Assembly (NCBI GenBank): GCA_024643555.1
Contig: JAHEMQ010000117.1
Span: 1-64,000 of the forward strand
Reading direction: 5' to 3'
Length of the DNA stretch: 64,000 nt
From: Crocinitomicaceae bacterium
Lineage (GTDB): Bacteria > Bacteroidota > Bacteroidia > Flavobacteriales_D > Crocinitomicaceae
Below, in pieces: positions 5,601 to 57,255 of the stretch. The translations under genes were made by a program, and so were the position numbers. Positions within the stretch are counted from its first letter, which is position 1. Each line of letters starts with the position of its first letter. Under the pieces are notes generated by a model. It saw only the letters and a list, made by a program, of their open reading frames with translations. It was not told where the DNA came from and ran no database searches.

Positions 5601-6442
5601 CATAATGGACCAGACAACATCCCTTCTACCAGGTTATAACCATATTTATCCAATCCGAAAACTTTTCCGTCGTATCCATTTGGATCTGCTCCTTTAAAAT
5701 AAAGACCGGAAGATACACCTTCAATTGAACCAAAATAAACAGCAGATGGACCTCGCGTTGTAATGGAGATGATACCACCAGTAACGTCACCGTAGTTAGC
5801 CGGCACACCACCCGTAATCACGGACACTTCTTCTAGAGCTGATTTAGGAATGTTTGCAGACCCCCTTACTTTGATTCCATCGATGTAGTAATATGTACCG
5901 TCAGAACGTGAACCGCGAACGGAAATGGCGCCAGAGCCTTCATTTGAATTGACACCACCAACTGATCGTGCGACACCATCCGCTGAACGCACTGGCATTC
6001 TGCTGATGTCCTCACGTGTAACTGTCGCACCAGATGCACCACCATTTTTATCAATTAATGGCACTTTATAGATGATAACTTTTACCTCTTGCTCATCTTT
6101 GACTTTTTTCGCAAGAGTCAAATTATCCAAGAATGTAATACGATCTGGCGAGATTGAAACCCCTGTCATCACCGACATATTGTACCCGGAGATTGCGTTA
6201 GAAAAGTGCAAATCATAGGTTCCCGGAGGAATACCATTGATTTGGAATTTTCCTTGGATATCCGTTGAAGCACCACTTTTAATTTGGTCCCCTTGTTTCA
6301 ATAGAACTTTACAAAGCTCAATTGGCTGCCCTGTTGATTCGTCCTTAATTGTCCCTTTTAGGGTACCAAGACCCGATTGAGAGAATGCATAAGTGCTTGC
6401 GAACAAAACACTTAGTAACAATAACTTTAGTTTACCCACCAT
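2690..6442 (-). CDS. TonB-dependent outer-membrane receptor with N-terminal carboxypeptidase-like domain
   Basis: A 1250-residue outer-membrane transporter of the TonB/SusC-like superfamily. The track starts at 6571, but the extra 43 residues are charged and non-signal-like. The ATG at 6442 opens a clean signal peptide (MVGKLKLLLLSVLFASTYAFS) with Gln at +1, so I use that start. Next come a carboxypeptidase-regulatory-like beta domain (~25-105), a plug domain (~120-235, with VTREDISRMPVRSADG and YYIDGIKVRG) and a long beta-barrel ending in the typical aromatic C-terminus GVKFDF. It is upstream of and probably co-transcribed with the large surface protein at 1-2668. The substrate cannot be read from the sequence; there is no SusD homologue beside it, so a glycan-SusCD assignment is not supported. 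Confidence 0.93.
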   Translation of the reverse strand: MVGKLKLLLLSVLFASTYAFSQSGLGTLKGTIKDESTGQPIELCKVLLKQGDQIKSGASTDIQGKFQINGIPPGTYDLHFSNAISGYNMSVMTGVSISPDRITFLDNLTLAKKVKDEQEVKVIIYKVPLIDKNGGASGATVTREDISRMPVRSADGVARSVGGVNSNEGSGAISVRGSRSDGTYYYIDGIKVRGSANIPKSALEEVSVITGGVPANYGDVTGGIISITTRGPSAVYFGSIEGVSSGLYFKGADPNGYDGKVFGLDKYGYNLVEGMLSGPLWMQRDSTGKKTKPRLGFLISANMTDQLDGRPLAGGGYRVKKEVRDELLANPLRPNSTGFGTFHNALFLRESDFEKVAWRMNARNTVYSGQAKIDVNTGPSVNLQFGASMNYNTGSSYSYSGSLLNFTNFGYSKSYDYRVFGRLTQRFNNEREGSSSKIKSALYSLMVDYSKSFSESYDPKHQFNLFNYGYVGKFVTTRRPSYTFNDATQMYVHDGFKDVQVDFTPSETNAALAAITTQYFNIYEGSPFGHFENLTQINAGNALRNGDAPQSVYGIWSNIGAPYNGFGRFENDQFRVTGAGSVIIGDHSISLGFEYEQRVDRGWSSGDFGPTGIWSIARQLTNFHIKELDMNSGVVSDSGSFKAITYDRLNSGYAYTSGTGEYGGQLNNDNQSFFDYNLRKKLGINVAGDDFVDIDSYDPNLFQYDMFSPDELLNSGNSFVSYYGFDHTGKKVKGNTDINKYFNEFDQNHNYKRFVGAFQPIYMAGYIMDKFAFNDIVFNVGVRVDVFDANQPVLKDQYLFYNAKTVKEVRALKESDPNQYAWVNLPNGMADDNIVYVNDVKNPTEIKGFRTGMTWFNAAGTPIEDPKLVEGPNGIAPWLQDPSLTSPTADAFADYKAQVNVMPRVAFSFPISEEASFFAHYDILTKRPTSGYRFDPYEYQYIQSRNAVINNANLKPEKTVDYELGFQQVLTRTSSVKISAFYREQRNNVQLVNIFQAYPATYKTYGNRDFGTVKGMTIAYDLRQTGNIRMTANYTLQFADGTGSDATSMGALVNAGLPNLRNIFPYSYDQRHAFAVTFDYRYGEGKDYNGPVIGKSKILENTGLNIFSNFYSGSPYSSQTFITDEGIGNLNAGINGTLNGSRLPWSYRLDMQLDKTFNLQYGNKDNKKKVAFLNVYVRVTNMFNQFNKLNVYRATGNWNDDGYLAAASSQTSIQNQTDEQSFRDYYMMKIQNPFNISSPRTIRLGVKFDF

Positions 6443-9914: not shown

Positions 9915-12107
9915 TTATTTCACCATGAATGGCAAGGTTTTTTGACCATTTGAACCGGACAACACTAATTGATACATCCCAGCAGCCAATTGATCAGTGT
10001 TCATCATTACTAGGTTTTTTCCTATTTTTCCTTTCACCAAGTGTTTTTGTAGCGCTTTACCTGAAAGGTCGTAGATGGAAACCGTTAAATCTTCTGAGTT
10101 TAATAGATCAAAGGAGACATTTAATTCTTCATCCGTTGGATTTGGGAACAATTCGATGTTGGCCATGAATGCAAGTTCGTTCATACCCGTGACAATTTCA
10201 TTCGAAGGACTGCCATTGTAAATATTAATATCATCCAAGTAGATATTATTTCCACCTTCACCTTCGAAGCGGAATTTCACCCTAAATTTATCCGTGAAAT
10301 AAGTGCTTGTTACATTGGTCATGTGAACGGTTACCCAATCCGTCTGAGCACTTGGTTTCCATGAAGTCGTTGATGTCAAATTAGATAATTGATTCCCTTG
10401 AATCGTTTTACGTTGAATCCAAGCAGTTCCACAATCACCAGAAATAAACACTTTGAAGTATTCAAAATCTGCGGCCAAAACCTTGCGATATGCATAACGG
10501 AAGCTTAAGGTTACGGTACCTGTGGTGGGAACAGTAGATAAGTCAATTTGTGAAGAAATCAACTCATCTACATTGGAAGTACCTTGGCCAAAGTTCATCA
10601 ATTTCGCACATTGATTTCCTGTATAACCCGTCGTGGACTCAATTGTCCATGCATTATTTGTTGAAGAATTATATACATCCCATGTCTGAATTCCATTCAA
10701 ACTAGCGTAGTTTTCAAATCCTTCCCAGAATGGCAAAGAAGCACCTGTATTTAACACATGAATGAAATTATTTTTGATTTCATCATCTGTTATTGTTCCA
10801 TCGGTTGCTGTCAATTGAATGGTATACAATCCAGGTGTATCAAAGTTCACTTTTGGATTCTGACTTGTCGCAGAAGTTCCGTTCGTGTATGTCCAACCAG
10901 TTGAAGGAGTAATGGTCCATGTCCAGCCGTTTGCCACATTGTAAGAATCATCTGAAAAGGCAATTTCATCTCCTGTACAGATAGTGGTTTTGTCTGCCGT
11001 AAATTCTGCCTTGCACAAGTATACCACTCCATTTGCCCCAACAGCCGCCAAATTTGCTGCAGACCAAACATTCGCACGTCCGGTATTCGTTGACTGCAAA
11101 GCGGTTCGCATGCGCGTTCGTTGACCCTGAGTAAACATTTTAGAACAGTACGAATAGTCCATGTAATTCTCCACATTATCTCGCATATCAAATCCCCAAT
11201 ATGCATTGTCATTACTGCAGGTATTTGAATTTAATAAACAAGCTGTTACTCCAATACAGGTTGGTGTGTCTTGAACTTGATCACCATTCCCGGCACAACT
11301 TCCTGCGGTTCCAGGATTATTGTTTGAACCCCAAGTATGCGATAGATTTAACCAGTGTCCAACCTCATGGGTTAGTGTTCTACTTGTATTTACTGAACTC
11401 GTACCTATGGAACCAACATAATCATGTAGCACCCATATTCCATTGGTCATATTATTTGCCGAAAATCCGGAAGGATTTGTGGTATAACCAGCGGCACCAC
11501 CAATCTCTCCACAAATAAAGACGTTCATGTATTTATTACCTGGCCACTGACCTTGATACACGTCATTTCCAGCCACAATTGCCGATACTTGTGCGTCGCC
11601 GTTTGAACCATCGTAACTTATGGGATTATAGGTTCTCGTAATTCCTTTGAAACAAGCGCCATTCGGTGCTTTTGTAGCCAATACAAATTCAACTTCGATG
11701 TCTGCAGGCATTCCAGCAAAATCCGGATGAACATTTGCCGTATCTGCATTTTGTTTACGGTAATCTCTATTCAAAATGTATAATGCATCCATGATTTGAT
11801 CATCCGAAATATTTTCCACCCCATTCATGTGAAGTACATGAAAAACAACAGGGATTTTATAAATGGTCGCTTTTTCTGTATTTCCTTTTTTGGATAACAT
11901 TTCAAACTCAGCATCGTCGAGTTCTTTTGCTTTAACGTACGCCGGATTCTTCATCAACTCAGCTTGTTTTTTGTGCTGCGTACAATATTCGATGTGCTCA
12001 CCCTCGCGCATGTTCCCAGGGTCCAGGGCGCGTTTCTGTTGAGCAAACAACGTTGTTGAAAAAGTAAATAACGATAATAAAGCAAAGAATAGTTGTCTTC
12101 TTTTCAT
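9915..12107 (-). CDS. Secreted M43 (pappalysin-like) metalloprotease with PKD domain and T9SS type A sorting domain
   Basis: A 730-residue exported zinc protease. Signal peptide ~1-22 (ends LFA, Gln at +1). The zinc motif HEVGHWLNLSH is at ~247-257 and a Met-turn-like ENYMDYSYC follows, which together identify the pappalysin/M43 family. Cysteines around the catalytic domain suggest disulfides. A PKD-like beta domain follows (~375-450), then a jelly-roll-like segment, and a ~75-residue type A C-terminal sorting domain starting at LFPNPTDEELNV and ending FMVK. Expected to be exported by Sec, then by T9SS to the surface or medium. Single gene; an intrinsic terminator was not found. The substrate is unknown; degradation of environmental protein is inference. 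Confidence 0.92.
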   Translation of the reverse strand: MKRRQLFFALLSLFTFSTTLFAQQKRALDPGNMREGEHIEYCTQHKKQAELMKNPAYVKAKELDDAEFEMLSKKGNTEKATIYKIPVVFHVLHMNGVENISDDQIMDALYILNRDYRKQNADTANVHPDFAGMPADIEVEFVLATKAPNGACFKGITRTYNPISYDGSNGDAQVSAIVAGNDVYQGQWPGNKYMNVFICGEIGGAAGYTTNPSGFSANNMTNGIWVLHDYVGSIGTSSVNTSRTLTHEVGHWLNLSHTWGSNNNPGTAGSCAGNGDQVQDTPTCIGVTACLLNSNTCSNDNAYWGFDMRDNVENYMDYSYCSKMFTQGQRTRMRTALQSTNTGRANVWSAANLAAVGANGVVYLCKAEFTADKTTICTGDEIAFSDDSYNVANGWTWTITPSTGWTYTNGTSATSQNPKVNFDTPGLYTIQLTATDGTITDDEIKNNFIHVLNTGASLPFWEGFENYASLNGIQTWDVYNSSTNNAWTIESTTGYTGNQCAKLMNFGQGTSNVDELISSQIDLSTVPTTGTVTLSFRYAYRKVLAADFEYFKVFISGDCGTAWIQRKTIQGNQLSNLTSTTSWKPSAQTDWVTVHMTNVTSTYFTDKFRVKFRFEGEGGNNIYLDDINIYNGSPSNEIVTGMNELAFMANIELFPNPTDEELNVSFDLLNSEDLTVSIYDLSGKALQKHLVKGKIGKNLVMMNTDQLAAGMYQLVLSGSNGQKTLPFMVK

Positions 12108-26403: not shown

Positions 26404-28539
26404 TTATCTCGGTAGTGGTTTAAACACTGAGTATTCTGGATTCGCCGGTGGGGCTGTTGCAGGATTGAAATCAGTTCCTGTAATTTTAGCTGTGGTACGT
26501 CGATTGATCTGATGTAATTTTTGGAATTTTGCAGGGTCACTCGTTTTAAACTGGTTAATGTAAGCTTCTGTTAAGATAACTTTTTGACCATTTTCGTCCT
26601 CCCATGTTGCAGGCTCAGACTCTCCCTTGCCAACTGGACGAATGCGACGAGCATCGATTCCTTTTTGCTCCACTAAGTATTTGTAAACTGCTTTTGCACG
26701 ATTTTCTGACAATACTTGATTTTTAACGTCTGTGTCACGAGCATCTGTGTGTGAGAATAAATCAATTGTAATATTCGGGTACTCGCGCAACATGCTATCC
26801 AAGAATTTTAACGAGTCCAAACTCATACAAGTCGCATCGTTGATGAATGTCCATTGGCTAACAGGGTAACGAACTTCCGGTGTTCTGATCTCTCCAATCG
26901 GCAACAATGGCATTTCAAGGATAAACGTTTGACTTTGGTCTAATCCAACTGTGCTGAATTTTGCACCACGTTTATCTTCGTAATAACCTTCCTTCGCTGC
27001 TTTCAAGGTGTAATCTTTTCCTACAAGAATCCAACGGCTCTTTTTATCTGGTTTCTCATTCCAACTAACTTTACCACGTGCATCGGTTGTCCCTTCCCAC
27101 GTCGTGCCATCAGATACAGTTACTGTTACTTTGGCGCCAGCTAATTTTTTCGTCTTTTTACCTGATTCATATACAATGACACGAAGGTCATACAAATTTG
27201 GTGGAATCGAATAGCTCCAAATGTCTGATGTATATTCATTACTTGATGATGTTTTGCGTTCTGAGGTAAAGAATCCTGTTCGTCCATCAAAATCACACAT
27301 TCCGTAATCGTTTCCTTGAGAATTGAATGGAACGCCCATGTTTTTTGTTCCTGACCATTTGTTTTCATCGCCTTGTTTTTGAGCAACGAAAATATCTAAA
27401 CCACCAATTCCTGGAAGACCATCACTGGCGAAGTACAATTGACCTTTTGGACCAATGGAAGGGAACAATTCATTTCCTGCGGAATTAAACATAGCACCCA
27501 TGTTGTGCGGAACAGAGTCCCACATTTTTGAACGTTTGTCATAGGTAACGTACCACAAATCGCGTCCACCAAAACTTTTTTCTCCGTTTGCACTCTCCGT
27601 CATATCCGAAGCAAAAATCAACATTTGATCATCAGGAGTTAAGCATGGATGTCCAACGGAAACAGTATCGTTTGTTTTCAAAGAAATTTTCATTGGATTC
27701 TCGAATTCTTCTCCACTGAGATCAGCTTTCCAAATTTCACAACCCAAATCCATTTTTTCTGCATTTGGACATCTTGTGAAATACAAAGTTTTCTTTCTTG
27801 AATCAAAACAAGCAGTTCCTTCGTTTTGTGTCGTATTCACCACTCCTTTCGTATCGATTGATTTTACGTTTGTTGGATTCCCATTTACGTCATATTCCGC
27901 GCTGAAGATATCCATGTATTTTTGACCAGAAATTGGATCGCGATCTGAACCAGTACACTCATCTCGACTTGTTCCAAAGTAAATGATTTTTCCTTTTTTG
28001 TCACCAAAAGATGGTGCCATGTCATATTGTTTCGAGTTGATTTTATCTTCACACTTGATCACATAGTTTGATTCTTCCGATTCAAAATCTCTGTATTTTT
28101 CAATAGCAGCCATTGCATCTTCCAATTCTTTTACTCGAGATTTTGGCGCAAGTCTTTTGTATTCGCGGTAACTTTTCAAAGCGTTGTCATACTCCTTCAA
28201 CATGCGTTGCATGTCACCTCTGTAGAAATACACTTCAGGAACAACGTCAAAATACTTCAACTCGATACAGGTTCCATACCATTCATTTGCTTTATCATAT
28301 ACTTGCATGTTTCTATACGATTCAGCGATTTTGAATGCCATGTCACCTTTTTGACGGATTGTGCCTTTGTATCCTAATGTTTTATAAGCATCTTGACAAA
28401 CTTTGATGGCTTCAAAATAGTTACCAGAATAATAGGTATCATTGGCCTTTCTGATGTATTTTGGCTCGGGTGTGTTTTGTCCAAATGTAAACTGAGCAAA
28501 GGAAAGCGTAAGAAAAGCTAAAATAAAAAATTGTTTCAT
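26404..28539 (-). CDS. PorE-like TPR / beta-propeller / carboxypeptidase-like / OmpA protein
   Basis: 711 residues. Signal peptide ~1-20 with Gln at +1. Then TPR-like helices (~22-130), WD40-like PD40 beta-propeller repeats (~150-440; GKIIYFGTSRDECTG, CFDSRKKTLYFTRC, HPCLTPDDQMLIFASD, FPSIGPKGQLYFASDG), a carboxypeptidase-regulatory-like domain (~455-530) and a C-terminal OmpA peptidoglycan-binding domain (~570-690; SHTDARDTD, NRAKAVYKYL, RRIRPVGKGESEP) with a ~35-residue helical insertion. This domain order is that of PorE of the type IX secretion system, which couples the outer-membrane part to peptidoglycan. Paralogues are common, so the T9SS role is likely but not proven. Monocistronic with its own terminator. 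Confidence 0.88.
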   Translation of the reverse strand: MKQFFILAFLTLSFAQFTFGQNTPEPKYIRKANDTYYSGNYFEAIKVCQDAYKTLGYKGTIRQKGDMAFKIAESYRNMQVYDKANEWYGTCIELKYFDVVPEVYFYRGDMQRMLKEYDNALKSYREYKRLAPKSRVKELEDAMAAIEKYRDFESEESNYVIKCEDKINSKQYDMAPSFGDKKGKIIYFGTSRDECTGSDRDPISGQKYMDIFSAEYDVNGNPTNVKSIDTKGVVNTTQNEGTACFDSRKKTLYFTRCPNAEKMDLGCEIWKADLSGEEFENPMKISLKTNDTVSVGHPCLTPDDQMLIFASDMTESANGEKSFGGRDLWYVTYDKRSKMWDSVPHNMGAMFNSAGNELFPSIGPKGQLYFASDGLPGIGGLDIFVAQKQGDENKWSGTKNMGVPFNSQGNDYGMCDFDGRTGFFTSERKTSSSNEYTSDIWSYSIPPNLYDLRVIVYESGKKTKKLAGAKVTVTVSDGTTWEGTTDARGKVSWNEKPDKKSRWILVGKDYTLKAAKEGYYEDKRGAKFSTVGLDQSQTFILEMPLLPIGEIRTPEVRYPVSQWTFINDATCMSLDSLKFLDSMLREYPNITIDLFSHTDARDTDVKNQVLSENRAKAVYKYLVEQKGIDARRIRPVGKGESEPATWEDENGQKVILTEAYINQFKTSDPAKFQKLHQINRRTTAKITGTDFNPATAPPANPEYSVFKPLPR

Positions 28540-29631: not shown

Positions 29632-31838
29632 TGCTTGATGAACTTAATCGGTTGTGCAGAAATGGTAGGAATAGACACGAAGTACATCCCAGCTTGAAAA
29701 CTTGTCAAAGAAATAATAGAATCAGTACTAGACAACATGAGGCGCCCCGATGCATCGTAAATATATTTCATTTCTCCAGTCAGATTTACTTCACTTTGAA
29801 ATTGAATTTCATCCATGGCTGGATTCGGGTAACAGGTGAATGATTTGACAGGGTTCGGTTTGCTTAACCCTAAAATTGGATCCAAAGCCGTGGAAAAAAT
29901 TGGGCGCATCATGGCACTTCCTGGAAAAGGTGAGCTCATCCAAGAACCACCACCATCTACACTAAATTTAATTTGATCAGAGTGGTCGGTGTTGCGATCC
30001 AATCCTAAGTTCAATCGTTGTTGATCCAATTGTCTCCAACCTACGAAGAATTTTTTGGGGCACGCTATTTTGGCAGTATCAGGGAAGTAATAATGAATGT
30101 ACTGATTCATCTCCGTGCCATAAATTGGATTTCTGGTATGGAAAATATCATCCTCATAGAGCACTTGGCCTGGATTTCCAGTTCCATCAGCAGCCCATAC
30201 AGTCAATAAAAACAGTTTATTACTAACATCGGTTACAGATGGGACGAAATCCATCGCTACCCCAATTAAGGAATCTGCCTCATATGCTTCAAAACCTATG
30301 GCTAAACGAGACTGCACACCAGTTGGGCCAAAAGCCGCTTCCGCACTACCATCATCGTAACTATAATAGTTGTAGAAGAGTTGTTGAAACGATGAATGGT
30401 CATTGTTAATGTCATTTGGAAATTGAGCAGACACAGTTGTTAAAATATCAAATGATTGAGTGTCACCTGTCAAATTTCTTGGGAAGTCTGCACCACTTGA
30501 TAAATCATGATATGACGTATGGGTGGTTCTAGGCTGGTAATTAATTTGTTGTTCAGCTAACGTGAATCCTTGCAAGGTAAAGGTTCCATAGTTGGTGGCA
30601 CCTTGGGAGAAAACAATGCTACCGTTTTGATAATTCTCCGGATTCGGACTTCCGTTGTGCACCTTCACCATCAGCGCATCGTTCATTTTATTCTCTGTTG
30701 AATTCTTGTAATGGTCCCACGGTACAGAGGTGTAAGTTTTTAATAAGGAATTGATTGGATACACTAACGCAAAATCTTTGAATAGCGTATCTGCTAAAAA
30801 AGATTGTGTGCGCAAATGAACATAATCAATGTGAAAATGATCCAAGGCACCCGCTAAGGAACCGTAGTTTTTAAACCTGAATTGGAATCCTTTTTTGAAA
30901 TATTTTGCATCCTTTATCGCGATATGAACCGCTTTGAAAGCATAGCTCGTATCTCCATTTATTGCCCAAACTCGAAACCATTGATCCAAATCCTTCGCAT
31001 ACAATTCCAAAACCAAAGAGTCTCCTTGTTCAGGAATATCACCCAAGCCTTCTGGTTGAACCAGAAAAGATAGATACAACGAATCGGCTGCTGTATATGG
31101 CGCCAAGTTCAATGGTTTACATGTTAAGCGATCCGCATAATTTGTCACAGTTGTTCCGATTTGATAAGGATATCCGTATTCGTTTAGCCCATCAAAAGTA
31201 GCAACTCCCAAAGAGCGGGGATCTGCACCAAATCGCTCGTTTAAATATGCTTTATGGTCCAACCATATTGCATTTGGATCGGCAAGGTTTGCGAAAAAAA
31301 CACGTGCTGAATCTTGAAAATAGGTTGGATTAGTTACCCAAACAGTATCCGAAATGTCTGGTACACCAATGGTGTCGTAAATGTAAAAAGGTGGATACAA
31401 ATCTTCCGTTTGATAGTTGACCGGAAAACTAGTAAAATCTGCTACTTTAACGGGTGTCGTAGCAAAGATACTATCGACAAATAAACCTGTTGTACTATCA
31501 TAGGTTCGTTTGAATGTAACACCATTTGTAAAACTTGCCGTTGCCCCAAAAGGAATCATCGTAGTTGGATTCAACAGACGGTAATACAACTGATTGGTGA
31601 CACCTGGGTCATTGAAATTCGCTCCGTATAATTGAAACTTGTTTGTTGAAAAATCATCAAACAAAGGCAAGTTTAAGGTATCTGACACATAACTAAAGGT
31701 ACTATCAATATTGGTTATTCCTGATTTTAATTGCTGCTCCGGACCATTTAAAAATAAATTTCGCGTAATCGGCCCCATTTCCAATTTTTGGGCAAATGAA
31801 AAGGTGGCAAGCAAGGAAAAAAACAACAGGAGTTTCAT
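29628..31838 (-). CDS. Secreted protein with T9SS type A sorting domain
   Basis: 736 residues, exported: signal peptide ~1-16 (SLLATFSFA, Gln at +1) and a C-terminal type A sorting domain starting at CYPNPAMDEIQFQS with the IYDASGRLM strand and GMYFVSI. The body is beta-rich (jelly-roll-like stretches such as FFANLADPNAIWLD and FQFRFKNYGS) without a recognisable catalytic motif. Its place between a PASTA protein and RluD, spaced 2 nt and overlapping 4 nt, suggests co-expression with envelope and ribosome genes. Function unknown; a cell-surface or secreted adhesive role is only a guess. Confidence 0.85.
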   Translation of the reverse strand: MKLLLFFSLLATFSFAQKLEMGPITRNLFLNGPEQQLKSGITNIDSTFSYVSDTLNLPLFDDFSTNKFQLYGANFNDPGVTNQLYYRLLNPTTMIPFGATASFTNGVTFKRTYDSTTGLFVDSIFATTPVKVADFTSFPVNYQTEDLYPPFYIYDTIGVPDISDTVWVTNPTYFQDSARVFFANLADPNAIWLDHKAYLNERFGADPRSLGVATFDGLNEYGYPYQIGTTVTNYADRLTCKPLNLAPYTAADSLYLSFLVQPEGLGDIPEQGDSLVLELYAKDLDQWFRVWAINGDTSYAFKAVHIAIKDAKYFKKGFQFRFKNYGSLAGALDHFHIDYVHLRTQSFLADTLFKDFALVYPINSLLKTYTSVPWDHYKNSTENKMNDALMVKVHNGSPNPENYQNGSIVFSQGATNYGTFTLQGFTLAEQQINYQPRTTHTSYHDLSSGADFPRNLTGDTQSFDILTTVSAQFPNDINNDHSSFQQLFYNYYSYDDGSAEAAFGPTGVQSRLAIGFEAYEADSLIGVAMDFVPSVTDVSNKLFLLTVWAADGTGNPGQVLYEDDIFHTRNPIYGTEMNQYIHYYFPDTAKIACPKKFFVGWRQLDQQRLNLGLDRNTDHSDQIKFSVDGGGSWMSSPFPGSAMMRPIFSTALDPILGLSKPNPVKSFTCYPNPAMDEIQFQSEVNLTGEMKYIYDASGRLMLSSTDSIISLTSFQAGMYFVSIPTISAQPIKFIKQ

Positions 31839-33438: not shown

Positions 33439-34500
33439 TTATTTGAGTACCTTCACCTCAAACATGGTTGGCCAAAATTTACCGGTCATGTACATTTTCT
33501 TTGTTCCTGGGTGATAGGCAATTCCATTCAACACTTCCCCATTTCCCTTGCCTTCGTTGACCAAGTTGGTCGCATCGATGATCGCCAAAACTTTACCGCT
33601 AGAAGGATCTATCACAGCAATTTCATTCGATGTCCAAACGTTGGCATAAATTAATCCATCGACAAACTCTAGCTCATTCAAACGTGCAATCGCCCCTTCG
33701 TTGGTGTATACCTCAATGGTTTTGACGATTTCGAAATTTTTTGGATTGCGTACAAAGATGCGTTCAGATCCATCGGACATGTACAAGTATTTTCCATCGT
33801 TACATATTCCCCAACCTTCCGTGGTATAGGCAAATTCCTTTGTGTTTTTTAAAGTTTCTTTGTCGTAAACCAAACATTGATGGTTTAACCAAGTCAGCTG
33901 AAACAATTGATCTCCAAGAATGGTAATACCTTCACCAAAATGACTGGCATCCAATCCAATTTTTGCACCTTGTTCGCCCGTTTTAATATTCACTTTAGCG
34001 ACAATTGAAGCCCCATTTTGATTAGGGTCTCCCGTTCCTTCATACATTTGATCACCAGAAAAGGCAAGTCCTTGCGTAAAGCTTGTTTCTAAATGCGGGA
34101 ATCTGTTGACAATTTCCAATTTCCACTTTTCTGGAACGATGTCCGATAGGATCCGTACATTTCGAATTTCCGTGAAAAACTGGCCTTCTAAATCCACACC
34201 ATGAATCTCCATTTCATATGCCCCGACTTGATAATTCTTTGAGTCTAAGGAAATGATTTCCTTTTCTTTTGGTGCAGGCCATTTTTGTATGGTTTTCCCG
34301 CCGAAGGTTACAACTAGGTTTTTAACTTCTCCATTGGTTTGAATGGGGATATTGACTACTTCACCATAACGAATTGCCAAGTTATCTGTGAATCCAAATT
34401 GAAATGGAGATTCTGTTGATTCGGATTTCTTTAAAAATATCGGCACAAGGTATCCACCTAATAATCCGAGGACAAGTAAAATGACCAGTGTTTTTTTCAT
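33439..34500 (-). CDS. Glutaminyl-peptide cyclotransferase, membrane-anchored (plant/bacterial type)
   Basis: 353 residues. Converts N-terminal Gln to pyroglutamate. An N-terminal membrane helix (~4-22, LVILLVLGLLGGYLVPIF) lacks a cleavage site or lipobox Cys, so the enzyme is probably tethered to the inner membrane facing the periplasm. An Ig-like part (~30-115) is followed by the five-bladed propeller of the glutamine cyclotransferase family (FTQGLAF at ~141; EGTGDPN; FGEGITILGDQLFQLTW; EGWGICNDGKYLYMSDG; LNELEFVDGLIYANVW; LNGIAYHPG). Third gene of pheS-ytxJ-QC, with 4-nt spacing. Its likely clients are the many exported proteins with Gln at +1, including eight in this window. Confidence 0.92.
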   Translation of the reverse strand: MKKTLVILLVLGLLGGYLVPIFLKKSESTESPFQFGFTDNLAIRYGEVVNIPIQTNGEVKNLVVTFGGKTIQKWPAPKEKEIISLDSKNYQVGAYEMEIHGVDLEGQFFTEIRNVRILSDIVPEKWKLEIVNRFPHLETSFTQGLAFSGDQMYEGTGDPNQNGASIVAKVNIKTGEQGAKIGLDASHFGEGITILGDQLFQLTWLNHQCLVYDKETLKNTKEFAYTTEGWGICNDGKYLYMSDGSERIFVRNPKNFEIVKTIEVYTNEGAIARLNELEFVDGLIYANVWTSNEIAVIDPSSGKVLAIIDATNLVNEGKGNGEVLNGIAYHPGTKKMYMTGKFWPTMFEVKVLK

Positions 34501-34504
34501 TTTT

Positions 34505-34840
34505 CTAAACTATTTTTTTTAGCAGCTCATTGGCGTCGATCATACCATGACTTTCTTGATAAATTACTTCACCATTTTTTAGTAATATTGCCTGAGGGGA
34601 TTGATGGATGACGTGGCACTTCACTTCAATTTCAGACGATATTGGGCGGTATTCTAAAAGATCTAAATACCAGCATACCAATGCGTTATTTTCTAATATA
34701 CCCGATTTTTCAAATCGCGAAAGTGCCATGGTTGAGATACTGCAGCGCGTGCTGTGTTTAAAGAATAATTGAGGGGTTTCTCGACTGGCTTCGATGATGT
34801 GCTGAACTTGTGAAAGATCATTTAAGGTATTCCATCCCAT
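34505..34840 (-). CDS. ytxJ: YtxJ-like bacillithiol-system thioredoxin-fold protein
   Basis: 111 residues. Thioredoxin-like with a single redox Cys in FKHSTRCSIS (~27-36, Cys ~33), characteristic of YtxJ, and VIHQSPQAILLKNGE matching the cis-Pro strand region. YtxJ is proposed to act as a monothiol bacilliredoxin in bacillithiol-producing bacteria; that function is from the family, not shown here. It lies 1 nt after pheS and 4 nt before the cyclase gene. Confidence 0.85.
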   Translation of the reverse strand: MGWNTLNDLSQVQHIIEASRETPQLFFKHSTRCSISTMALSRFEKSGILENNALVCWYLDLLEYRPISSEIEVKCHVIHQSPQAILLKNGEVIYQESHGMIDANELLKKIV

Positions 34841-34841
34841 G

Positions 34842-38332: not shown

Positions 38333-40777
38333 ATGAAATTCCTACTCTTTTTATTCTTCTTATTTCCAGTTCTTGGATATTCGCAAACCACTACCGTAAA
38401 AGGATTTGTAAAAGATGAGAAAGGTGAACCTATCCCTTTTGCCCGTGTACGATTCGTGGGTACAAAAATTGGGGATTTAACCGATTCGACAGGAGCTTAT
38501 TTTCTACAAAGTTATTATGCAACCGATTCGATTAATGTTCAATTCATAGGTTTTCAGACACAAACCATTAAAATCAAAAAGGATGCGGAACAAACAATAA
38601 ATGTGACAATGAAGATTCAATCAACCGACCACAAAGATGTGGTTGTGATGATCTCAAGTGAATCCCCTGCTGTCGCTTTGCATAAAAAAGTGATTGCAAA
38701 CAAACCCATCAATAATAAAGAGAAGTTAAATGCTTATCAATACAAGCTATACAACAAAATCCAACTTGATTTAAATAATCTTGGAGATAAGTTTCAGCAA
38801 AATGGTCTTGTCAAACGCATGGACCTTGTTATGAATTACCTTGATTCTACTCACGACGGAAATACGTATTTACCGGTTATTTTGACAGAATCAATTTCGG
38901 ACTATTTCTTCAAAAATCAACCTAAACAGAAAAAGGAAATCGTTCAAGCAACAAAAATTACAGGGATTGAAAATGTTCAGGTCAATCAATTCTTAGGCGA
39001 CATGTACCTGGACCTCAATGTGTACGATAATATCTACGACTTGTTCAATAAATCATTTATCAGTCCACTTGCACCTTTTGCAAGAACCTATTATCAATTC
39101 GTTCTTGAAGATTCAAGCTTCATCGGTGCCGACTGGTGTTACAAATTGCGATTTGAACCGAAACGAACAGGAGACCTTGCCTTTACCGGCGAAATGTGGA
39201 TCAATGATACGACTTATGCTGTGAAGCAAATCAAAGCTTCGATATCGCCTGATGCCAATCTAAATTACATTCAAAACCTATATTTCGAACATTTCTTTGA
39301 GCAAGTTCAAAATGAAGTTTGGATGTTAACTGAGGAACGATTAATCTTAGAATTTAGGTTAACCGAAGAATCTAAAATTCTTGGAATGTATGGGCGTAAA
39401 TACAGCAAAAGAAGTGATTTCGTCATAAATCAACCGAAGGAAAATCAATTCTACACTACCAATGCTGTAGAAATTAGTGATAGTGCAAAAATTCGTTCAC
39501 AAGAATACTGGCAACAGCATCGCCCGATTGTGTTAAATGTCCAAGAAAAACACATCGAAGAAATGGTGGATTCCTTGAGTAAAACATCCTTCTACAAATC
39601 GATGAAAAAACTGGTATATTTCGCAACTACAGGGTATTATCAGGTTAATAAAATCGAACTTGGAAACGCATCTTCACTCATCAGTACTAATCCAGTCGAG
39701 AAATACCGTTTAGCAATGGCACTTCGGACTTCGAATGACTTTTCAAAGCGACTCGAACTTGGAGGACGTGTGGCATACGGATTTGGAGATGAGAAATGGA
39801 AATACGCGGCAAAAATTCGGTATAACATTACTCCGAAAAAAAGAGGAATGCTGACTGGTATTTATTCCTATGATATTGAACAAATTGGACAATCACCAAC
39901 CGCAGCTTCCATGGGTAGTACTTTCGCAACCGTTTTCAATACAGCACCTTTTGATAAATTAACCTTTGTCAATAAAATTGGACTGAATTTAGAAAAAGAC
40001 ATCAAAAAAGACCTCATCTTGTATGGTGGTTTCGAATGGAAAAGTTACACCCCTTTAGGATTAGCAAATTACCAACGCGTTCTCAATTTTGATACCGTAA
40101 ACGTCTCCAATATCAAAACGTTTGAATTCATTGGGCGCGTGAGGTGGACCAAAGGAGAAGAATTTTTATCTGGATATTTCGACCGAACAAGCTTACGTTC
40201 GGTTTACCCAATCTTTTCCATTCAAGCCATCATCGGAATGAAAAATGTATTCGGAAGTGAATACAATTACCAACGCCTGGAGTTTCAAATGGAACACAAT
40301 ACGCAATTAGGGGTCTTAGGACGCATGCGCTATGGATTCACAGCAGGATACATATTTGGGACAACCGCTTATCCTTTTCTCAAAGTCCATGAAGGGAATC
40401 AATCTCTTTGGTTGTTGACAAGTACATTTAATAAATTAAACTTCATGGAATTCATTAGCGACAAATATGTCACGGGCTTTGTTGAAAATCACTGGGAAGG
40501 ACTTTTCTTCGATCGCATTCCACTCGTAAAGAAATTAAACTTGCGCTTAGTAACAACAGGACGCGTTCTATACGGAGACATCAGTCAAAAACATGAACAA
40601 GCCATGTTAATACCGGATTTTGTCAAACGTTTTAATGGCGTCCCATATATGGAAACCTCAGTAGGAATAGAGAACATTTTCAAAGTCATTCGAGTGGATT
40701 TGGTTTGGCGCATGACTCATCCGATTCCAGGCCAAAGTCCATTTGGAATTCGTGCACGCTATGCATTCAATTTTTAA
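38333..40777 (+). CDS. DUF5686 outer-membrane protein with N-terminal carboxypeptidase-like domain
   Basis: 814 residues. Signal peptide ~1-17 (LFPVLGYS, Gln at +1), a CarboxypepD_reg-like domain (~20-105: VKGFVKDEKGEPIPFARV, LTDSTGAYFL), then a DUF5686 middle portion (~120-400) and a beta-barrel-like C-terminus ending IRARYAFNF, with the terminal aromatic typical of outer-membrane barrels. The family is common in Bacteroidota and has no established function that I know of. The operon with tatC and lptB suggests an envelope-biogenesis role, which is inference. Confidence 0.88.
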   Translation: MKFLLFLFFLFPVLGYSQTTTVKGFVKDEKGEPIPFARVRFVGTKIGDLTDSTGAYFLQSYYATDSINVQFIGFQTQTIKIKKDAEQTINVTMKIQSTDHKDVVVMISSESPAVALHKKVIANKPINNKEKLNAYQYKLYNKIQLDLNNLGDKFQQNGLVKRMDLVMNYLDSTHDGNTYLPVILTESISDYFFKNQPKQKKEIVQATKITGIENVQVNQFLGDMYLDLNVYDNIYDLFNKSFISPLAPFARTYYQFVLEDSSFIGADWCYKLRFEPKRTGDLAFTGEMWINDTTYAVKQIKASISPDANLNYIQNLYFEHFFEQVQNEVWMLTEERLILEFRLTEESKILGMYGRKYSKRSDFVINQPKENQFYTTNAVEISDSAKIRSQEYWQQHRPIVLNVQEKHIEEMVDSLSKTSFYKSMKKLVYFATTGYYQVNKIELGNASSLISTNPVEKYRLAMALRTSNDFSKRLELGGRVAYGFGDEKWKYAAKIRYNITPKKRGMLTGIYSYDIEQIGQSPTAASMGSTFATVFNTAPFDKLTFVNKIGLNLEKDIKKDLILYGGFEWKSYTPLGLANYQRVLNFDTVNVSNIKTFEFIGRVRWTKGEEFLSGYFDRTSLRSVYPIFSIQAIIGMKNVFGSEYNYQRLEFQMEHNTQLGVLGRMRYGFTAGYIFGTTAYPFLKVHEGNQSLWLLTSTFNKLNFMEFISDKYVTGFVENHWEGLFFDRIPLVKKLNLRLVTTGRVLYGDISQKHEQAMLIPDFVKRFNGVPYMETSVGIENIFKVIRVDLVWRMTHPIPGQSPFGIRARYAFNF

Positions 40778-41517: not shown

Positions 41518-44190
41518 TCAACGAATCAAGTTGACGAAACCATCCACTTGTTGCCAAATGTAAGGCTTATCACAAGATCGGAACTTCACAACATACGAGT
41601 AAATACCATCCTGACACATGATGCCTTTTAACTTTCCATCCCAAGCTTGTGCTGGGTCATTGGTTTGAAAAATAAGTTCTCCCCACCGGTCATAAATACG
41701 AAAATCCCATGAAACAACCTCAAAATCTGTTATTGGTTTGAACAACTCATTACGCCCATTTTCGTCAGGAATGAACGTATTTGGTATGTAAATCGAGAAT
41801 GGCTCAACAAAAACGGTACGTCGGGCAGTGTCTCTGCAGCCAAATTGATTCGAAACAATTTGAATCGGGTAATCTGATCCTGCATTTACATAGTCATGTG
41901 AGAAATTTGCCAAGTTCGATGTGAATTCATGGTGATCAAAAACGTACTGAATATGCTCAGCACCTTGTGATTGATCAATAAAAACTACGGTATTGTCACA
42001 CACGTCTACCTTTTCCGGGTTGACACTAAATGCTGCTGTTGGTGAATCGTGAACGGTTACTAAATCTTGCTTCATTAAATAAAGTGTATCCATACATCCG
42101 TAAAGCTGATTCAACGTTAGACTCACACTATAATTCCCTGGTATTAGATAAATGTGATTTGGATTGACGGCATTGGAGACAATCCCATCTCCAAAATTCC
42201 ACTGATATTGAATCGGAACATCCGATTGACTTAAATTGACAAACTGAGCGACTGATGGCGCACATTGTAGAGTATTGATAAACATAAAATCAATGCTGGC
42301 ATGTCCAAAAATCTGTATGCTGGTTTGAATGGTATCCGAGCAATTGTCGTATTGTCCGATGAAATAAACAGGCATGGTTCCAGATTGCGCATAAGAAACC
42401 CCTTGCACACTGAGATTTGAGGAAGTCGGCGGTGTCGCATTGTTTCCAAAGTCCCAATGGAATGTGGCATTACTTGGGCCCGAAACCGTTGCTGTAAAAT
42501 CAAAGGTATCATCAATACATAAAGAATCTGTGTGGGTAACAGACATCACGAGTGGTTCTTTAATGTTTACCATGACCTCACTCGTGTCAGCACAATTAGG
42601 CGATGAATTCGCAATCAATTGAACGGTGTACATTCCTGGACTCGGAAACGTAAAAGTTGGCGTACTTAAAGTACTTTGTCCAACGCTTCCTCCATTTATG
42701 CTGAAATCCCATTGATAATTAACAGAGGAACTCGAATTGTTTCCAAAAGGCACGGTATAACCGATGCATTCGACTAACGGAGGAACTGCAATGGCACTGA
42801 TAGGAACATCAAAGATGAAAATGGAGTCTGTGTAACTCAACTGGCAGAAACCATCATCTGCAATGATTTCTACTTCATGGAAGCCTGGGGCAGTATACGA
42901 GACATTCAACAAGGAATTCCCTGTTCCACTCGTTTGACTCGCGGTTGGATCAAGTACCCATGCGAGGGTTGCAGACGGATTGGAAACATTCGCAATGAAA
43001 TCAAACTGATTGCCTAAGATGCACAATGAATCTTGTGAGGACCATGAAACACTCAAAGGATTATTGACAATGATATTCATGTAAGCCGTATCCGTACAGG
43101 GCATTCCAGGATTGACAATTAATTGAACATTGTAATTCCCCGGACTCGGGAAAGTATAATTTGGAGCAAATTGAGAGGAAACATCAGTCGTAATATTCGG
43201 AACCCCAAAATTCCATGCGTAACTTGTTCCACCATAGGAATTGTTAACAAATTGAACATTTAAACCCTGGCAATAAGACACAAAGGTTGGTAATTGCGTT
43301 TGCAACGGTAACAATGCCTGCATGACAATGTTACAATCAAATACTCGGAATAAAAAATCACGTATTGTTTGTCCGACCAAAACCCCATTTCGGTATTCCT
43401 TTACACATACACCCACTACAAACAAGCCAATCATGTTTGGGTTGACCGTAAGCACACCAGTAACTGGATCGATTACGGTTGATGACCCCGGGCCAAGTGG
43501 TTGTTGTGCATTGAAATTGGTCCCATTCCACTGCACCGGAAAATATGGTGGTGCTGGAGCTTGAGTCGGTTGCGGATTTGCAGAACTAGCCCCAGACCAA
43601 GGCGTCACCAATGAATAGCTTAGAAAATCGCCGTCGGGATCGGTTGCAACATGATTGAAGATCAATTGATCATTGTTACATAAAAGAACCGGTGGATAAT
43701 TCGTAAAACGGGGACTGCTATTTGCAGTAAATCCAGTGTCAGAACCAGGAACATGGGTTGTTAACGTGATCCCAGTATCGTCAGGAAATAATAAATTGGT
43801 GATATTCGGTCCCCGACAACACCGTTGATAAGAAACATCGTAACCGCCTGGTGAAGGCGGTAGGGTTACAACGGTCGTGTATATCGCACGTTCGACACAA
43901 ATATTTGTTGGTGGTGTTGCGCAAGGATTATTGAAATTAATGGGAAGGATGACGCTTCCCGGAAATGGAACCAAAATATTCGCAAAGAACACATTGTTTG
44001 GTTTGTAAATAGTCAAGGCTAAAGGGTCGTCATACTGTGCTCCAGAGGAATTACAATCCCGGTAAAGCGTTATGAAAAAACGGTACTGGTTATTCCCTAA
44101 ATAATCATAATAAATATCTCCCCCAATAATATGCGAGGCATAGGAGGAGGTAATCATGAAAAAGGAAAGAATAAGGTAGAGTTTCTTCAT
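41518..44190 (-). CDS. PKD-repeat surface protein with T9SS type B (gliding-motility-type) sorting domain
   Basis: 890 residues from ATG at 44190. The track's 44208 start is a TTG lying within the promoter -7 box. Signal peptide ~1-18 ending SSYA, then a mature start near SHIIGG (no +1 Gln, unlike most neighbours). N-terminal domain (~20-285), then about six PKD-like repeats (YAWNFG, YQWDFS, HWDFGNN, YQWNFGDG etc.). The type B sorting domain starts at IYIPNTFIPDENG and ends GFVNLIR. Likely exported by T9SS with a PorP/SprF-type partner; none is adjacent. Adhesion or surface-filament role is inference. Confidence 0.9.
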   Translation of the reverse strand: MKKLYLILSFFMITSSYASHIIGGDIYYDYLGNNQYRFFITLYRDCNSSGAQYDDPLALTIYKPNNVFFANILVPFPGSVILPINFNNPCATPPTNICVERAIYTTVVTLPPSPGGYDVSYQRCCRGPNITNLLFPDDTGITLTTHVPGSDTGFTANSSPRFTNYPPVLLCNNDQLIFNHVATDPDGDFLSYSLVTPWSGASSANPQPTQAPAPPYFPVQWNGTNFNAQQPLGPGSSTVIDPVTGVLTVNPNMIGLFVVGVCVKEYRNGVLVGQTIRDFLFRVFDCNIVMQALLPLQTQLPTFVSYCQGLNVQFVNNSYGGTSYAWNFGVPNITTDVSSQFAPNYTFPSPGNYNVQLIVNPGMPCTDTAYMNIIVNNPLSVSWSSQDSLCILGNQFDFIANVSNPSATLAWVLDPTASQTSGTGNSLLNVSYTAPGFHEVEIIADDGFCQLSYTDSIFIFDVPISAIAVPPLVECIGYTVPFGNNSSSSVNYQWDFSINGGSVGQSTLSTPTFTFPSPGMYTVQLIANSSPNCADTSEVMVNIKEPLVMSVTHTDSLCIDDTFDFTATVSGPSNATFHWDFGNNATPPTSSNLSVQGVSYAQSGTMPVYFIGQYDNCSDTIQTSIQIFGHASIDFMFINTLQCAPSVAQFVNLSQSDVPIQYQWNFGDGIVSNAVNPNHIYLIPGNYSVSLTLNQLYGCMDTLYLMKQDLVTVHDSPTAAFSVNPEKVDVCDNTVVFIDQSQGAEHIQYVFDHHEFTSNLANFSHDYVNAGSDYPIQIVSNQFGCRDTARRTVFVEPFSIYIPNTFIPDENGRNELFKPITDFEVVSWDFRIYDRWGELIFQTNDPAQAWDGKLKGIMCQDGIYSYVVKFRSCDKPYIWQQVDGFVNLIR

Positions 44191-48232: not shown

Positions 48233-49459
48233 ATGAAAAATATCCTCATCCTTTTTTCTATTTGCTTGCTTTGTTTTCATTCATTTGGGCAAACAATGAA
48301 TGCAGAAAAAGAATTATTATGGGAGATTTCAGGAAATGGTTTAAAACAGAAATCCTACCTCTTTGGATCGCTTCATTCTAATGATAAACGCTTGTTTCAA
48401 TTAAGTGATTCCGTTTATACCGCTCTTGTAAATACACAAAAAGTCATTCTAGAAACAGATATTTTTGGACTTTTTAACGAACTGGATACACGAACGAAAT
48501 TACCAAGTACACGATACGATAAAAATGGGACACCCTATACGGCGGAAGTCGAAGCAGGAAAGACATTTTATGGGGATGAAGATGGCATGCCCCAGTTTTT
48601 GGATGCCTATTTTCAAATGTACTGTCTGAATGCAGGGAAACCCTTTATTCAGCTGGAAACAGTAAAAGAACAGTACGACTTACTTTCCGATGAAGTAAAA
48701 CTTTCCGATCGTCAGTTTATCGATAATGCGTTGAATGATTTCACGCATGAACACTTGCTTGATCTTTACTTGAAAGGAGATTTGATGGCTATTGATAAAT
48801 TCATGAAAGCCAACATGTCCATTCAACCCGGTTTGTACGATGAAGTCATTTCAAAGCGCAACGTGAATATGACTCAAAAATTAGATTCCATTTTGAAAAC
48901 TCGAACGAGTTTTTTCTGTGCTGTTGGTGCAGGACACCTTGGTGGTTCGACTGGTATTTTAAATTTATTGCGTTCAAAAGGCTACCGAGTGCGCATGGTG
49001 ACGTGGAATTATTCCGAAAAACCGAGCAAGGATGAGGTAAAGATTAAATCCTTCAGAGAGTTCGTATACAAAGACGAAAAGTCTGGTCTCATCGCTCAAC
49101 TACCAAGCAAACCAATGGTACTTTCGGAAGAAGGAAACGTAACAAGATTGGTATACCGCGAACTCGGACAAGGCAATACGTACGAAATATCTATTATTCC
49201 CATGGATTCCACACTCAGTCCGGATGAAATTGCGGCAATTTACATTGCGACGCCACCAGATACACGAATTAAAAAAATGTTGGAAGACGACGGACGACTC
49301 GTTTATGAGGGATTATCAAACACCTATCCGGAAGGATTAAATTTTGTGCAAATTCAATTTAATCCAGCATACTTCGCAGTCATCAAAACCTATGGTGGAA
49401 ATAAATTCATGCACTCCAATCGTCCAAGTCAGTTCTTTTTGCGCGTCTGGTTCGAGTAG
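48233..49459 (+). CDS. TraB/GumN family protein
   Basis: 408 residues, exported: signal peptide ~1-19 (LLCFHSFG, Gln at +1). The N-terminal ~275 residues match TraB/GumN (Tiki-like) proteins: YLFGSLHSND near 43, VILETDIFGL near 75, and FCAVGAGHLGG (~225). The invariant GxxH and E/H residues that would bind metal are present. The C-terminal part (~280-408) is a separate mixed alpha/beta stretch that I do not recognise. Possible protease of the periplasm or cell surface; unproven. Confidence 0.85.
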   Translation: MKNILILFSICLLCFHSFGQTMNAEKELLWEISGNGLKQKSYLFGSLHSNDKRLFQLSDSVYTALVNTQKVILETDIFGLFNELDTRTKLPSTRYDKNGTPYTAEVEAGKTFYGDEDGMPQFLDAYFQMYCLNAGKPFIQLETVKEQYDLLSDEVKLSDRQFIDNALNDFTHEHLLDLYLKGDLMAIDKFMKANMSIQPGLYDEVISKRNVNMTQKLDSILKTRTSFFCAVGAGHLGGSTGILNLLRSKGYRVRMVTWNYSEKPSKDEVKIKSFREFVYKDEKSGLIAQLPSKPMVLSEEGNVTRLVYRELGQGNTYEISIIPMDSTLSPDEIAAIYIATPPDTRIKKMLEDDGRLVYEGLSNTYPEGLNFVQIQFNPAYFAVIKTYGGNKFMHSNRPSQFFLRVWFE

Positions 49460-53590: not shown

Positions 53591-55294
53591 ATGAGAATTT
53601 TACTCGCTTTTTTCTTTTTGATTATTACAAGTATCGTATTTGGACAAAAGGTTCTGAAAGAGAATTTAAGTCCAAAAGTTCGTATTTACTGGGATGCCAA
53701 TAACAAGCACCTTCAAGGAACTGGTTCTTATTTCACAAGTGCTGCAAGTCCAAAAACGACAGAAAAACATGGCAAATGGGTGTTTTATTCCTACGATGGC
53801 GTTTTAGAAGAGGAAAGTAATTATTACCGAGATCGCTTATTAGGTAAACGCTTATTTTACTACCCCAATAAACAAGTAAAAGAGGAATCTTATTTCAAAT
53901 TTAATGTCCCGGACAGTTTGTTTTTTCAGTGGAATCAAAATGGAAAATTAATCACGAAGGGGCAATTCGAATTGGGAAGTCCTGTTGGGGAATGGCAGTA
54001 TTATTTTGATGATGGTCGCGAAAAATCAATTGAAAAGGTCGTGAATGATACGGTTTATTTGATGGCCAGTTGGGAAGAAAATGAAGCACACAAACAAACC
54101 GTCATCAATGGAAATGGCTCCATCGACGAAAGATACATCAGTGGTGGTATCAAGGCCCACTATACGTTTAAAAATGGTCTGAAAAATGGTCCATTCGAAG
54201 AACGAACCGCAAATGGCGTGCTGTCCGTCAGTGGATCCTTTTTAAATGGAAAAAAAGACGGAACTTGGGAATTTTATGAATACCAAGGCATATTGGAGAA
54301 AAGGATTTCCTATTTAGCAGATTCCTTGGATGGAGCTTATCAGGTTTTTGACTTGAATGGCGATACCTTGACCTCAGGGACTTACACGAATGGTAAAAAA
54401 CATGGATTTTGGATGTGGAATACTCCGGAAAAGCGCTTAGAAATGAGTGGGTACTTTCAAATGGACAAACAAGATAGTATTTGGCATTACTATTTTCCGA
54501 CAGGAGAGTTATCTTATGTAGCGCACTACAAGGACGGATTAAAAACAGGTGAATGGAATTATTATTATCCAAATGGAGCCAATTACCGCAAAGGGAATTA
54601 CCTGAATGATCAACGTGAAGGAAATTGGCAAACATGGTATGAAGATGGTGTTTTACTCATGAATGGAAATTACACCAAGGGAAAAGAACAAGGTGTTTGG
54701 TATAATTACTGGGAGAATGGCGCCTTAAAAAACAAAGCGGAATTTAAGGATGGTCTCATGAACGGAACATGGCTTTCCTATACTCCAGAAAGCGTTCTTT
54801 CGATGTCCGGCAAGTATAAAAAAGGATTTAAAGTGGGTACATGGGAAAGTTACTACAACAATGGCCGACTGAAAGAAAAAGTAAATTACAAGATTTTCAC
54901 GGAAACCAATGTGACCAATGACATGGCCATTATGGGATTAAAAGAAACCGTGAGTGATTATCATGGTAAATTTCAGGCTTACTCTCAGAAGGATTTTTCG
55001 CTGAAATCGGAAGGCAAATATTACAAAGGAATGAAACACGGTCAATGGTTCGACTATTATCCGGGAGGAGTTATTCCAACCATCATTTCAGAATACCGCT
55101 ATGGAAAATTAGACGGTGTATTTAAACAATTAGATCCACGAGGTAGGGTCGTATATGAAATCCATTATAAAAATGGTTTGAAACACGGGCCATTTATCGT
55201 TTACGGAGAGAATGGAAACATTGTCTCACAAAAAGAGTTTCGTTTCGGAAAAGAAGTATCGCGCGGAGGATCCGGAGCCTTATTTACTCCCTAA
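53591..55294 (+). CDS. Exported MORN/YwqK-like repeat protein
   Basis: 567 residues. Signal peptide ~1-18 (IITSIVFG, Gln at +1). The rest is about 17 imperfect ~22-residue repeats with the pattern NGxxKxGxWxxYYxxGxLxxxxxY, for example KDGLKTGEWNYYYPNGANYRKG, typical of MORN/YwqK-like beta repeats. Databases label these 'YwqK family antitoxin', but here it is an exported repeat protein with no toxin gene, so that label should not be taken literally. Co-transcribed with the LysE-type gene. Its 3' end overlaps rsmA by 15 bp. Confidence 0.85.
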   Translation: MRILLAFFFLIITSIVFGQKVLKENLSPKVRIYWDANNKHLQGTGSYFTSAASPKTTEKHGKWVFYSYDGVLEEESNYYRDRLLGKRLFYYPNKQVKEESYFKFNVPDSLFFQWNQNGKLITKGQFELGSPVGEWQYYFDDGREKSIEKVVNDTVYLMASWEENEAHKQTVINGNGSIDERYISGGIKAHYTFKNGLKNGPFEERTANGVLSVSGSFLNGKKDGTWEFYEYQGILEKRISYLADSLDGAYQVFDLNGDTLTSGTYTNGKKHGFWMWNTPEKRLEMSGYFQMDKQDSIWHYYFPTGELSYVAHYKDGLKTGEWNYYYPNGANYRKGNYLNDQREGNWQTWYEDGVLLMNGNYTKGKEQGVWYNYWENGALKNKAEFKDGLMNGTWLSYTPESVLSMSGKYKKGFKVGTWESYYNNGRLKEKVNYKIFTETNVTNDMAIMGLKETVSDYHGKFQAYSQKDFSLKSEGKYYKGMKHGQWFDYYPGGVIPTIISEYRYGKLDGVFKQLDPRGRVVYEIHYKNGLKHGPFIVYGENGNIVSQKEFRFGKEVSRGGSGALFTP

Positions 55295-56499: not shown

Positions 56500-57255
56500 A
56501 TGAAAAAACTTTTGATTCTCTCGCTTTCAACATTCTTGTTGAATGCTGCATCTTGGGCTCAGTCGTGTACACCAGGAGCAAACTATGTCGATTCAACTTA
56601 TGGTGTTTGGCCAGATACAACACAAAACTTACCTCCCGCATTGGTAAATGTTGCCTATTCCACCGATGTTAACTTTAAGGTTCCAGCTACTGTTACTGCC
56701 GAATTGGATGCAACTGGGCAGTTTGTAGGTTCTCCTATTCAAGGATTTACGGTAACTGGATTAACCGGACTCCCATCTGGATACAACTATGCTTGTAACA
56801 TCAGCAGTTGTACTTATGCTGGTGGAGCAAATGGTTGCGCAAACATTTATGGTACTACCGCTACAGCAGGAACGTATCCAATTACAATTGAGGTTACCGC
56901 TACCGTTTTAGTTACCCTTTTCCCAGGTTTACCACCAACTCCGGTTACACAATCGGTATCTTTTCCAGGTTACAAAATCATCGTGGGAACAGCCGGGGTT
57001 ATTGAAGGCATCATCTATCCGATTTCAGTGAGTCCAAATCCTGCAAATTCCATGATTACTGTTAATGGAATTACTTCAGCCATGAATGCTACAGAAATGG
57101 TTTTGTCGAATGTGGAAGGAAAAATCATTGAAAAAAGAAATCTTGACTCGAATTCAAATTTAACTTTTGATTTAAATGGTTTAAATACAGGAATCTATTT
57201 CATCCATGTTTCACACACGAATGGTGTGGAAACTGTGAAATTTATGAAAAACTAA
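56500..57255 (+). CDS. Small secreted protein with T9SS type A sorting domain
   Basis: 251 residues. Signal peptide ~1-20 (LNAASWA, Gln at +1). The mature N-terminus has Cys-containing segments (QSCTPG, YACNISSCTYAG) and a beta-rich, Thr/Pro-rich body. The C-terminal ~75 residues are a type A sorting domain: ISVSPNPANSMITVNG, MVLSNVEGKIIE, LNTGIYFIHVSH, ending VKFMKN. Monocistronic, flanked by a consensus -7 box and a bidirectional terminator. Function of the ~150-residue mature module is unknown; it has no enzyme motif. Confidence 0.88.
   Translation: MKKLLILSLSTFLLNAASWAQSCTPGANYVDSTYGVWPDTTQNLPPALVNVAYSTDVNFKVPATVTAELDATGQFVGSPIQGFTVTGLTGLPSGYNYACNISSCTYAGGANGCANIYGTTATAGTYPITIEVTATVLVTLFPGLPPTPVTQSVSFPGYKIIVGTAGVIEGIIYPISVSPNPANSMITVNGITSAMNATEMVLSNVEGKIIEKRNLDSNSNLTFDLNGLNTGIYFIHVSHTNGVETVKFMKN

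Follow-up and report, generated by a model that had tools for sequence, protein, structure and literature searches.

The genome of Crocinitomicaceae bacterium analysed here very probably follows the Q-rule, according to which Gln is selected directly after the cleavage site (position +1) of signal peptidase I (SPI) precursors. In this reading, a single glutaminyl-peptide cyclotransferase (QC) keeps its type I active site intact and is held by an N-terminal hydrophobic anchor lacking a lipobox, and evolution has kept an inner-membrane tether rather than a particular kind of anchor. The main finding is an instance of a known rule. The Q-rule that the original prediction had invoked for Bacteroidota was published in 2018 (PMC5837995) and 2023 (PMC10653852), and the present genome fits it in its excess of +1 Gln, in the conservation of this residue among orthologues and in its type I QC. 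Mechanistically, SPI-type precursors would have Gln as the first residue left by cleavage, and a tethered type I QC would close the N-terminal Gln to pyroglutamate. The repeated swap between lipid and transmembrane anchors suggests that it is the inner-membrane tether, not the kind of anchor, that is maintained in evolution. For this bacterium, we infer pyroglutamate formation, the location of the QC and a protective role of the modification. The Q-rule matters because the modification extends across the phylum and is indispensable to P. gingivalis.

A type I glutaminyl cyclase with an intact active site

The window, a contiguous stretch of 64,000 nucleotides, encodes on its minus strand the plant/bacterial-type cyclase that had been predicted (Table 1). 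The protein matches Pfam PF05096 with 286.6 bits (E 2e-85; curated cut-off 22.3), and its nearest solved relative is the papaya QC 2faw (171 bits). The AlphaFold2 model (pLDDT 91.7) matches 2iwa at E 1.9e-27, the top structure matches being the papaya, Xanthomonas, Zymomonas and Myxococcus QCs. All papaya active-site residues are kept in the window QC: Q143, E190, N275 and K341 correspond to papaya Q24, E69, N155 and K225 (catalytic residues as named in PMC5837995), and F188, W204, W230 and W289 are further active-site equivalents. Across 95 homologues, the four former positions do not vary, apart from a Glu replacing Q143 in one of them and single gaps. Judged by sequence and model, this gene encodes a type I QC whose active site is intact, and cyclase activity is predicted. 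Between the anchor and the propeller, about 90 residues form a beta-rich domain, which is absent from plant QC.

The window QC is the sole QC found in its genome, the assembly of which is 86% complete, such that another could be missing. A second PF05096 match was absent from this assembly, and an order-wide type II search gave no match in this genome or in any other genome of the family. Three M28 proteins of the genome were considered as a second QC and rejected: none is type II-like, and the best one matches aminopeptidases. With regard to gene context, a bacilliredoxin-like gene lies directly upstream of the QC gene, and the pheS-ytxJ-QC neighbourhood (33439-35858, minus strand) is kept in 30/30 genus loci. 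A linkage between the QC and signal peptidase genes was discarded, the PF10502 match residing on a different contig (C94).

Table 1. Features of the 64,000-nucleotide window discussed in the text, in order of position. The arrow marks the cleavage site.
Feature	Position	Strand	Details and evidence
Exception: left-edge protein, +1 Tyr (ALA↓YLGPNDK)	2606..2608	-	Gene 2-2668 of the window
+1 Gln codon, TonB receptor (AFS↓Q)	6377..6379	-	Internal start, ORF residue 44, MVGKLKLLLLSVLFASTYAFS↓Q
+1 Gln codon, M43 protease with T9SS tail (LFA↓Q)	12039..12041	-	N-terminus and domain search
+1 Gln codon, PorE-like protein (TFG↓Q)	28477..28479	-	Gln in 30/30 orthologue rows
+1 Gln codon, T9SS cargo (SFA↓Q)	31788..31790	-	Por_Secre_tail just under Pfam cut-off
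Type I (plant/bacterial-type) QC, 353 aa	33439..34500	-	PF05096, papaya QC match, AlphaFold2
Catalytic beta-propeller, QC residues 122-351	33448..34137	-	PF05096 match, structures, model
N-terminal beta-rich domain, QC residues 33-120	34141..34404	-	Strands in model; catalytic match only from 122
Predicted uncleaved transmembrane anchor, QC residues 4-23 (TLVILLVLGLLGGYLVPIFL)	34432..34491	-	20-residue uncharged core, mean hydropathy 2.5
ytxJ/brxC bacilliredoxin-like gene	34505..34840	-	Directly upstream of QC; PF11009 and TIGR04019
+1 Gln codon, DUF5686 protein (GYS↓Q)	38384..38386	+	Gln in 28/28 aligned orthologue rows
Exception: PKD/CHU_C protein, +1 Ser (SYA↓SHIIGGDIYY)	44134..44136	-	Start at 44190; gene 41518-44190
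+1 Gln codon, TraB/GumN protein (SFG↓Q)	48290..48292	+	Gln in 27/29 orthologue rows
+1 Gln codon, MORN-repeat protein (VFG↓Q)	53645..53647	+	N-terminus and domain search
+1 Gln codon, T9SS cargo (SWA↓Q)	56560..56562	+	N-terminus and domain search

Exchange of lipid and transmembrane anchors

The window QC starts MKKTLVILLVLGLLGGYLVPIFLKKSES and lacks a lipobox, with no Cys occurring within its first 35 residues. Residues 2-22 are helical in the AlphaFold2 model, though at low confidence. The uncleaved membrane anchor put forward in the original prediction is supported by sequence, as the hydrophobic core has a transmembrane-like length of 20 residues, compared with a median of 12.5 in the cleavable +1-Gln signal peptides of the same genome, and no A-x-A site is found at its end. 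Bacteroidetes QCs had been regarded as mostly or entirely lipoproteins. Of the plant-type enzymes, 87% are predicted to be lipoproteins and about 5% to be SPI substrates (PMC5837995), and the latter figure lends some weight to the idea that the anchor is an ordinary signal peptide, cleaved to yield a soluble periplasmic enzyme. We consider this unlikely, given that the core length fits transmembrane anchors and not signal peptides, and that the core, besides ending without A-x-A, is followed by KKSES and often has a Pro near its end across the genus. With the anchor taken as uncleaved, we infer that the window QC sits at the inner membrane.

Anchors were then compared among related QCs, using classes defined by sequence patterns, with five proteins reassigned and three left ambiguous by eye. 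So classified, 50 of the 54 QCs of the genus have a transmembrane anchor, the others carrying a lipobox (3) or being ambiguous (1). The 20 QCs sampled from other genera of the family divide into 8 transmembrane proteins, 11 lipoproteins and 1 ambiguous case, and outside the family all QCs are lipoproteins, one ambiguous protein aside. On a QC tree built on the protein body, with the first 30 residues left out, the anchor type changes seven times. At least five of these changes are forced by well-supported branches, and none of the bootstrap trees gave a single anchor change. The tree thus points to lipid and transmembrane anchors having been exchanged at least five times in the family. Such repeated exchange would mean that inner-membrane tethering near signal peptidase is the selected property, a proposal that extends the P. 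gingivalis QC location to plant-type enzymes and for which we see the balance as even. Against a strict need of an inner-membrane tether stands the case of P. gingivalis itself, which survives on a heterologous QC located at its outer membrane (PMC5837995 / PMC10653852).

These anchor findings bear on a point that the 2018 paper left open, namely the site of QC action outside P. gingivalis. In P. gingivalis, the QC is located at the inner membrane (PMC5837995, PMC10653852). Elsewhere its location is hard to predict, because lipoprotein sorting rules fail in Bacteroidetes (PMC5837995). If our reading is true, plant-type enzymes, for which no location could be predicted, share the inner-membrane location, and relatives that swap lipid for transmembrane anchors make the site of QC action testable by comparison. 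We found no report of a transmembrane-anchored Bacteroidetes QC in the literature searched, which included a minority of subscription papers, and the transmembrane anchor together with its repeated exchange with a lipid anchor appears to be a new detail.

Gln at the predicted mature N-terminus of exported proteins in the window

Gln occupies position +1 in eight of the ten complete SPI-type proteins of the window. All ten N-termini, comprising the eight Gln sites and the two exceptions, are present as originally described, and domain searches agree with the names that the proteins had been given (TonB plug; M43 with T9SS tail; OmpA/TPR/PD40 for the PorE-like protein; DUF5686; TraB/GumN; MORN; T9SS tails; PKD with CHU_C). 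For the TonB receptor, the +1 Gln reading depends on an internal start. Four more candidates (35928, 36390, 36713 and 60114) were excluded from the SPI set on account of a lipoprotein-like N-terminal sequence. Considering that Gln makes up 4.0% of the residues in the ten proteins, the chance of finding it at +1 in at least eight of ten is 3e-10, and it is 1e-6 when three sites per protein are allowed for the eye to choose from.

We extended the analysis to orthologues, taking up to 30 loci per protein and including the window's own copy in the row counts. The +1 Gln is kept in every aligned row of the DUF5686 and PorE-like proteins and in all but two rows of the TraB protein (Table 1). Next to the kept Gln, position -1 can be Ala, Ser or Gly, and in these three window families the hydrophobic core is freely variable. 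The alignments argue that Gln directly after the cleavage site is under selection in SPI-type precursors.

The two exceptions are likewise stable in their orthologues. At +1 of the PKD/CHU_C orthologues read, the residue is Ser within the genus; more distant copies have Ala, Thr, Asp or Phe, and none has Gln. The left-edge protein, for which no Pfam match was obtained and relatives of which occur in 59/60 genomes searched, has Tyr at +1 in 30/30 orthologue rows, all of which begin the mature protein with Y[LY]GP. Because the orthologues are consistently without Gln too, both exceptions look like proteins whose mature N-terminus is under its own constraint, not like misread cleavage sites, and the lasting departure of the left-edge protein from the Q-rule suggests a functional N-terminus. 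The mature start of the PKD/CHU_C protein is itself conserved as xH[IVL][IV]GG[DE], with an H-[IVL]-[IV]-G-G motif after +1.

Type I and type II cyclases across the order

Among 199 genomes of the order, 124 encode a type I QC, 72 a type II QC, none both and 3 neither, and exactly one QC type is thus present in 196/199. No genome has both types because the matches fall in disjoint families, type I in f1, f2, f4, f5, f6, f8, f10 and f11, and type II in f3, f9 and f13. The type II enzyme of genome G038 (L167) matches solved bacterial glutamine cyclotransferases as well as human QC, and all five type II proteins read have a lipobox at their start.

G042 (99% complete, same order) and G178 are among the three genomes without a recognised QC of either type. 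In G042, the readable SPI-type proteins (L147, L161 and L172) have Gln at +1 in 3/3 cases (FLVG↓QK, TVQG↓QK and TFA↓QD), which could reflect either a third cyclase, a gene absent from the assembly, or a rule outliving its enzyme. Because +1 Gln is still seen in this genome without either type, a known QC may not be obligatory for it. The persistence of +1 Gln in G042, together with the QC and signal peptidase genes being unlinked, would also suit a scenario in which signal peptidase favours +1 Gln, or the residue serves as a sorting mark, and the cyclase has other substrates. We regard this scenario as very improbable, however, since proteomics of five species detected pyroglutamate, never free Gln, at these termini, and a sorting role of N-terminal Gln has been argued against (PMC5837995). 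Moreover, if the activity is needed and can be supplied by either type, nearly all genomes should have one QC type each, as is the case. The sharp division of the order into type I and type II genomes, along with the few lineages having neither, indicates where one could look for a third enzyme or for loss of the modification.

+1 Gln beyond the window

The genome-wide enrichment of +1 Gln anticipated in the original prediction was recovered as a strong excess confined to +1 in 507 kb of the genome outside the window; the sample further comprised 400 kb from each of two relatives and 250 kb of E. coli. Signal peptides were scored by a crude predictor that takes no account of the +1 residue. 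In its best-site version, it placed Gln at +1 in 20/49 proteins of the 507 kb and at each of the positions +2 to +8 in 0-3/49 (p = 2e-13 for +1 vs the remaining positions), compared to +1 Gln in 2/23 for E. coli K-12. Because best-site prediction misplaces several sites, owing to its preference for Ala at -1, we added a site-based test. Here, Gln followed 53/195 allowed cleavage sites of the 507 kb vs 35/896 other c-region positions (p = 9e-21). Among the candidates, 51/92 (55%) had Gln directly behind an allowed site; this test passes some non-SPI substrates, and its E. coli rate of 9/28 represents a non-negligible background. Counted by sites, Gln came next at 9/90 allowed sites of E. coli K-12, a difference from the present genome with p = 6e-4. 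The fractions for the present genome are probably underestimates because the crude predictor admits non-SPI proteins. In the same site-based test, the type II-only genomes G038 and G054 showed +1 Gln in 66% and 67% of candidates, and these genomes follow the Q-rule as strongly as the genome of the window, with its 55%.

There is hardly any likelihood that the +1 Gln pattern arose from picking cleavage sites by eye: the sites were indeed so picked, several signal peptides offer two or more allowed sites, and the best-site predictor puts just 3/8 window calls on Gln, but the excess persists with the +1-blind predictor, elsewhere in the genome and at +1 only, Gln is kept in orthologues while neighbouring residues change, and E. 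coli under the same treatment shows less +1 Gln.

Relation to known systems

The experimental reference for the Q-rule is P. gingivalis, for which experiments have shown that pyroglutamate is formed, that the QC is essential and that the modified proteins are stabilised (PMC5837995, PMC10653852). The P. gingivalis QC is an animal-type (type II) lipoprotein, whereas the window QC is a plant-type enzyme with a predicted transmembrane anchor, and pyroglutamate is predicted here. Compared to the solved type I QCs from papaya (2faw/2iwa), Xanthomonas campestris (3mbr), Zymomonas mobilis (3nol) and Myxococcus xanthus (3nok), the window QC has the same beta-propeller and the same active-site residues, being 38-39% identical to the papaya and Xanthomonas structures. 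The equivalent of papaya Gln24 is kept in the window QC, whereas the X. campestris QC has Glu instead (PMC5837995). What sets the window QC apart from these enzymes is its additional beta-rich domain on the N-terminal side and its predicted transmembrane anchor. In other families of the order, the lipoprotein type I QCs (L047, L049-L059) belong to the same protein family and are of similar length as the window QC, but they carry a lipobox Cys, whereas the genus of the window mostly has a transmembrane anchor instead.
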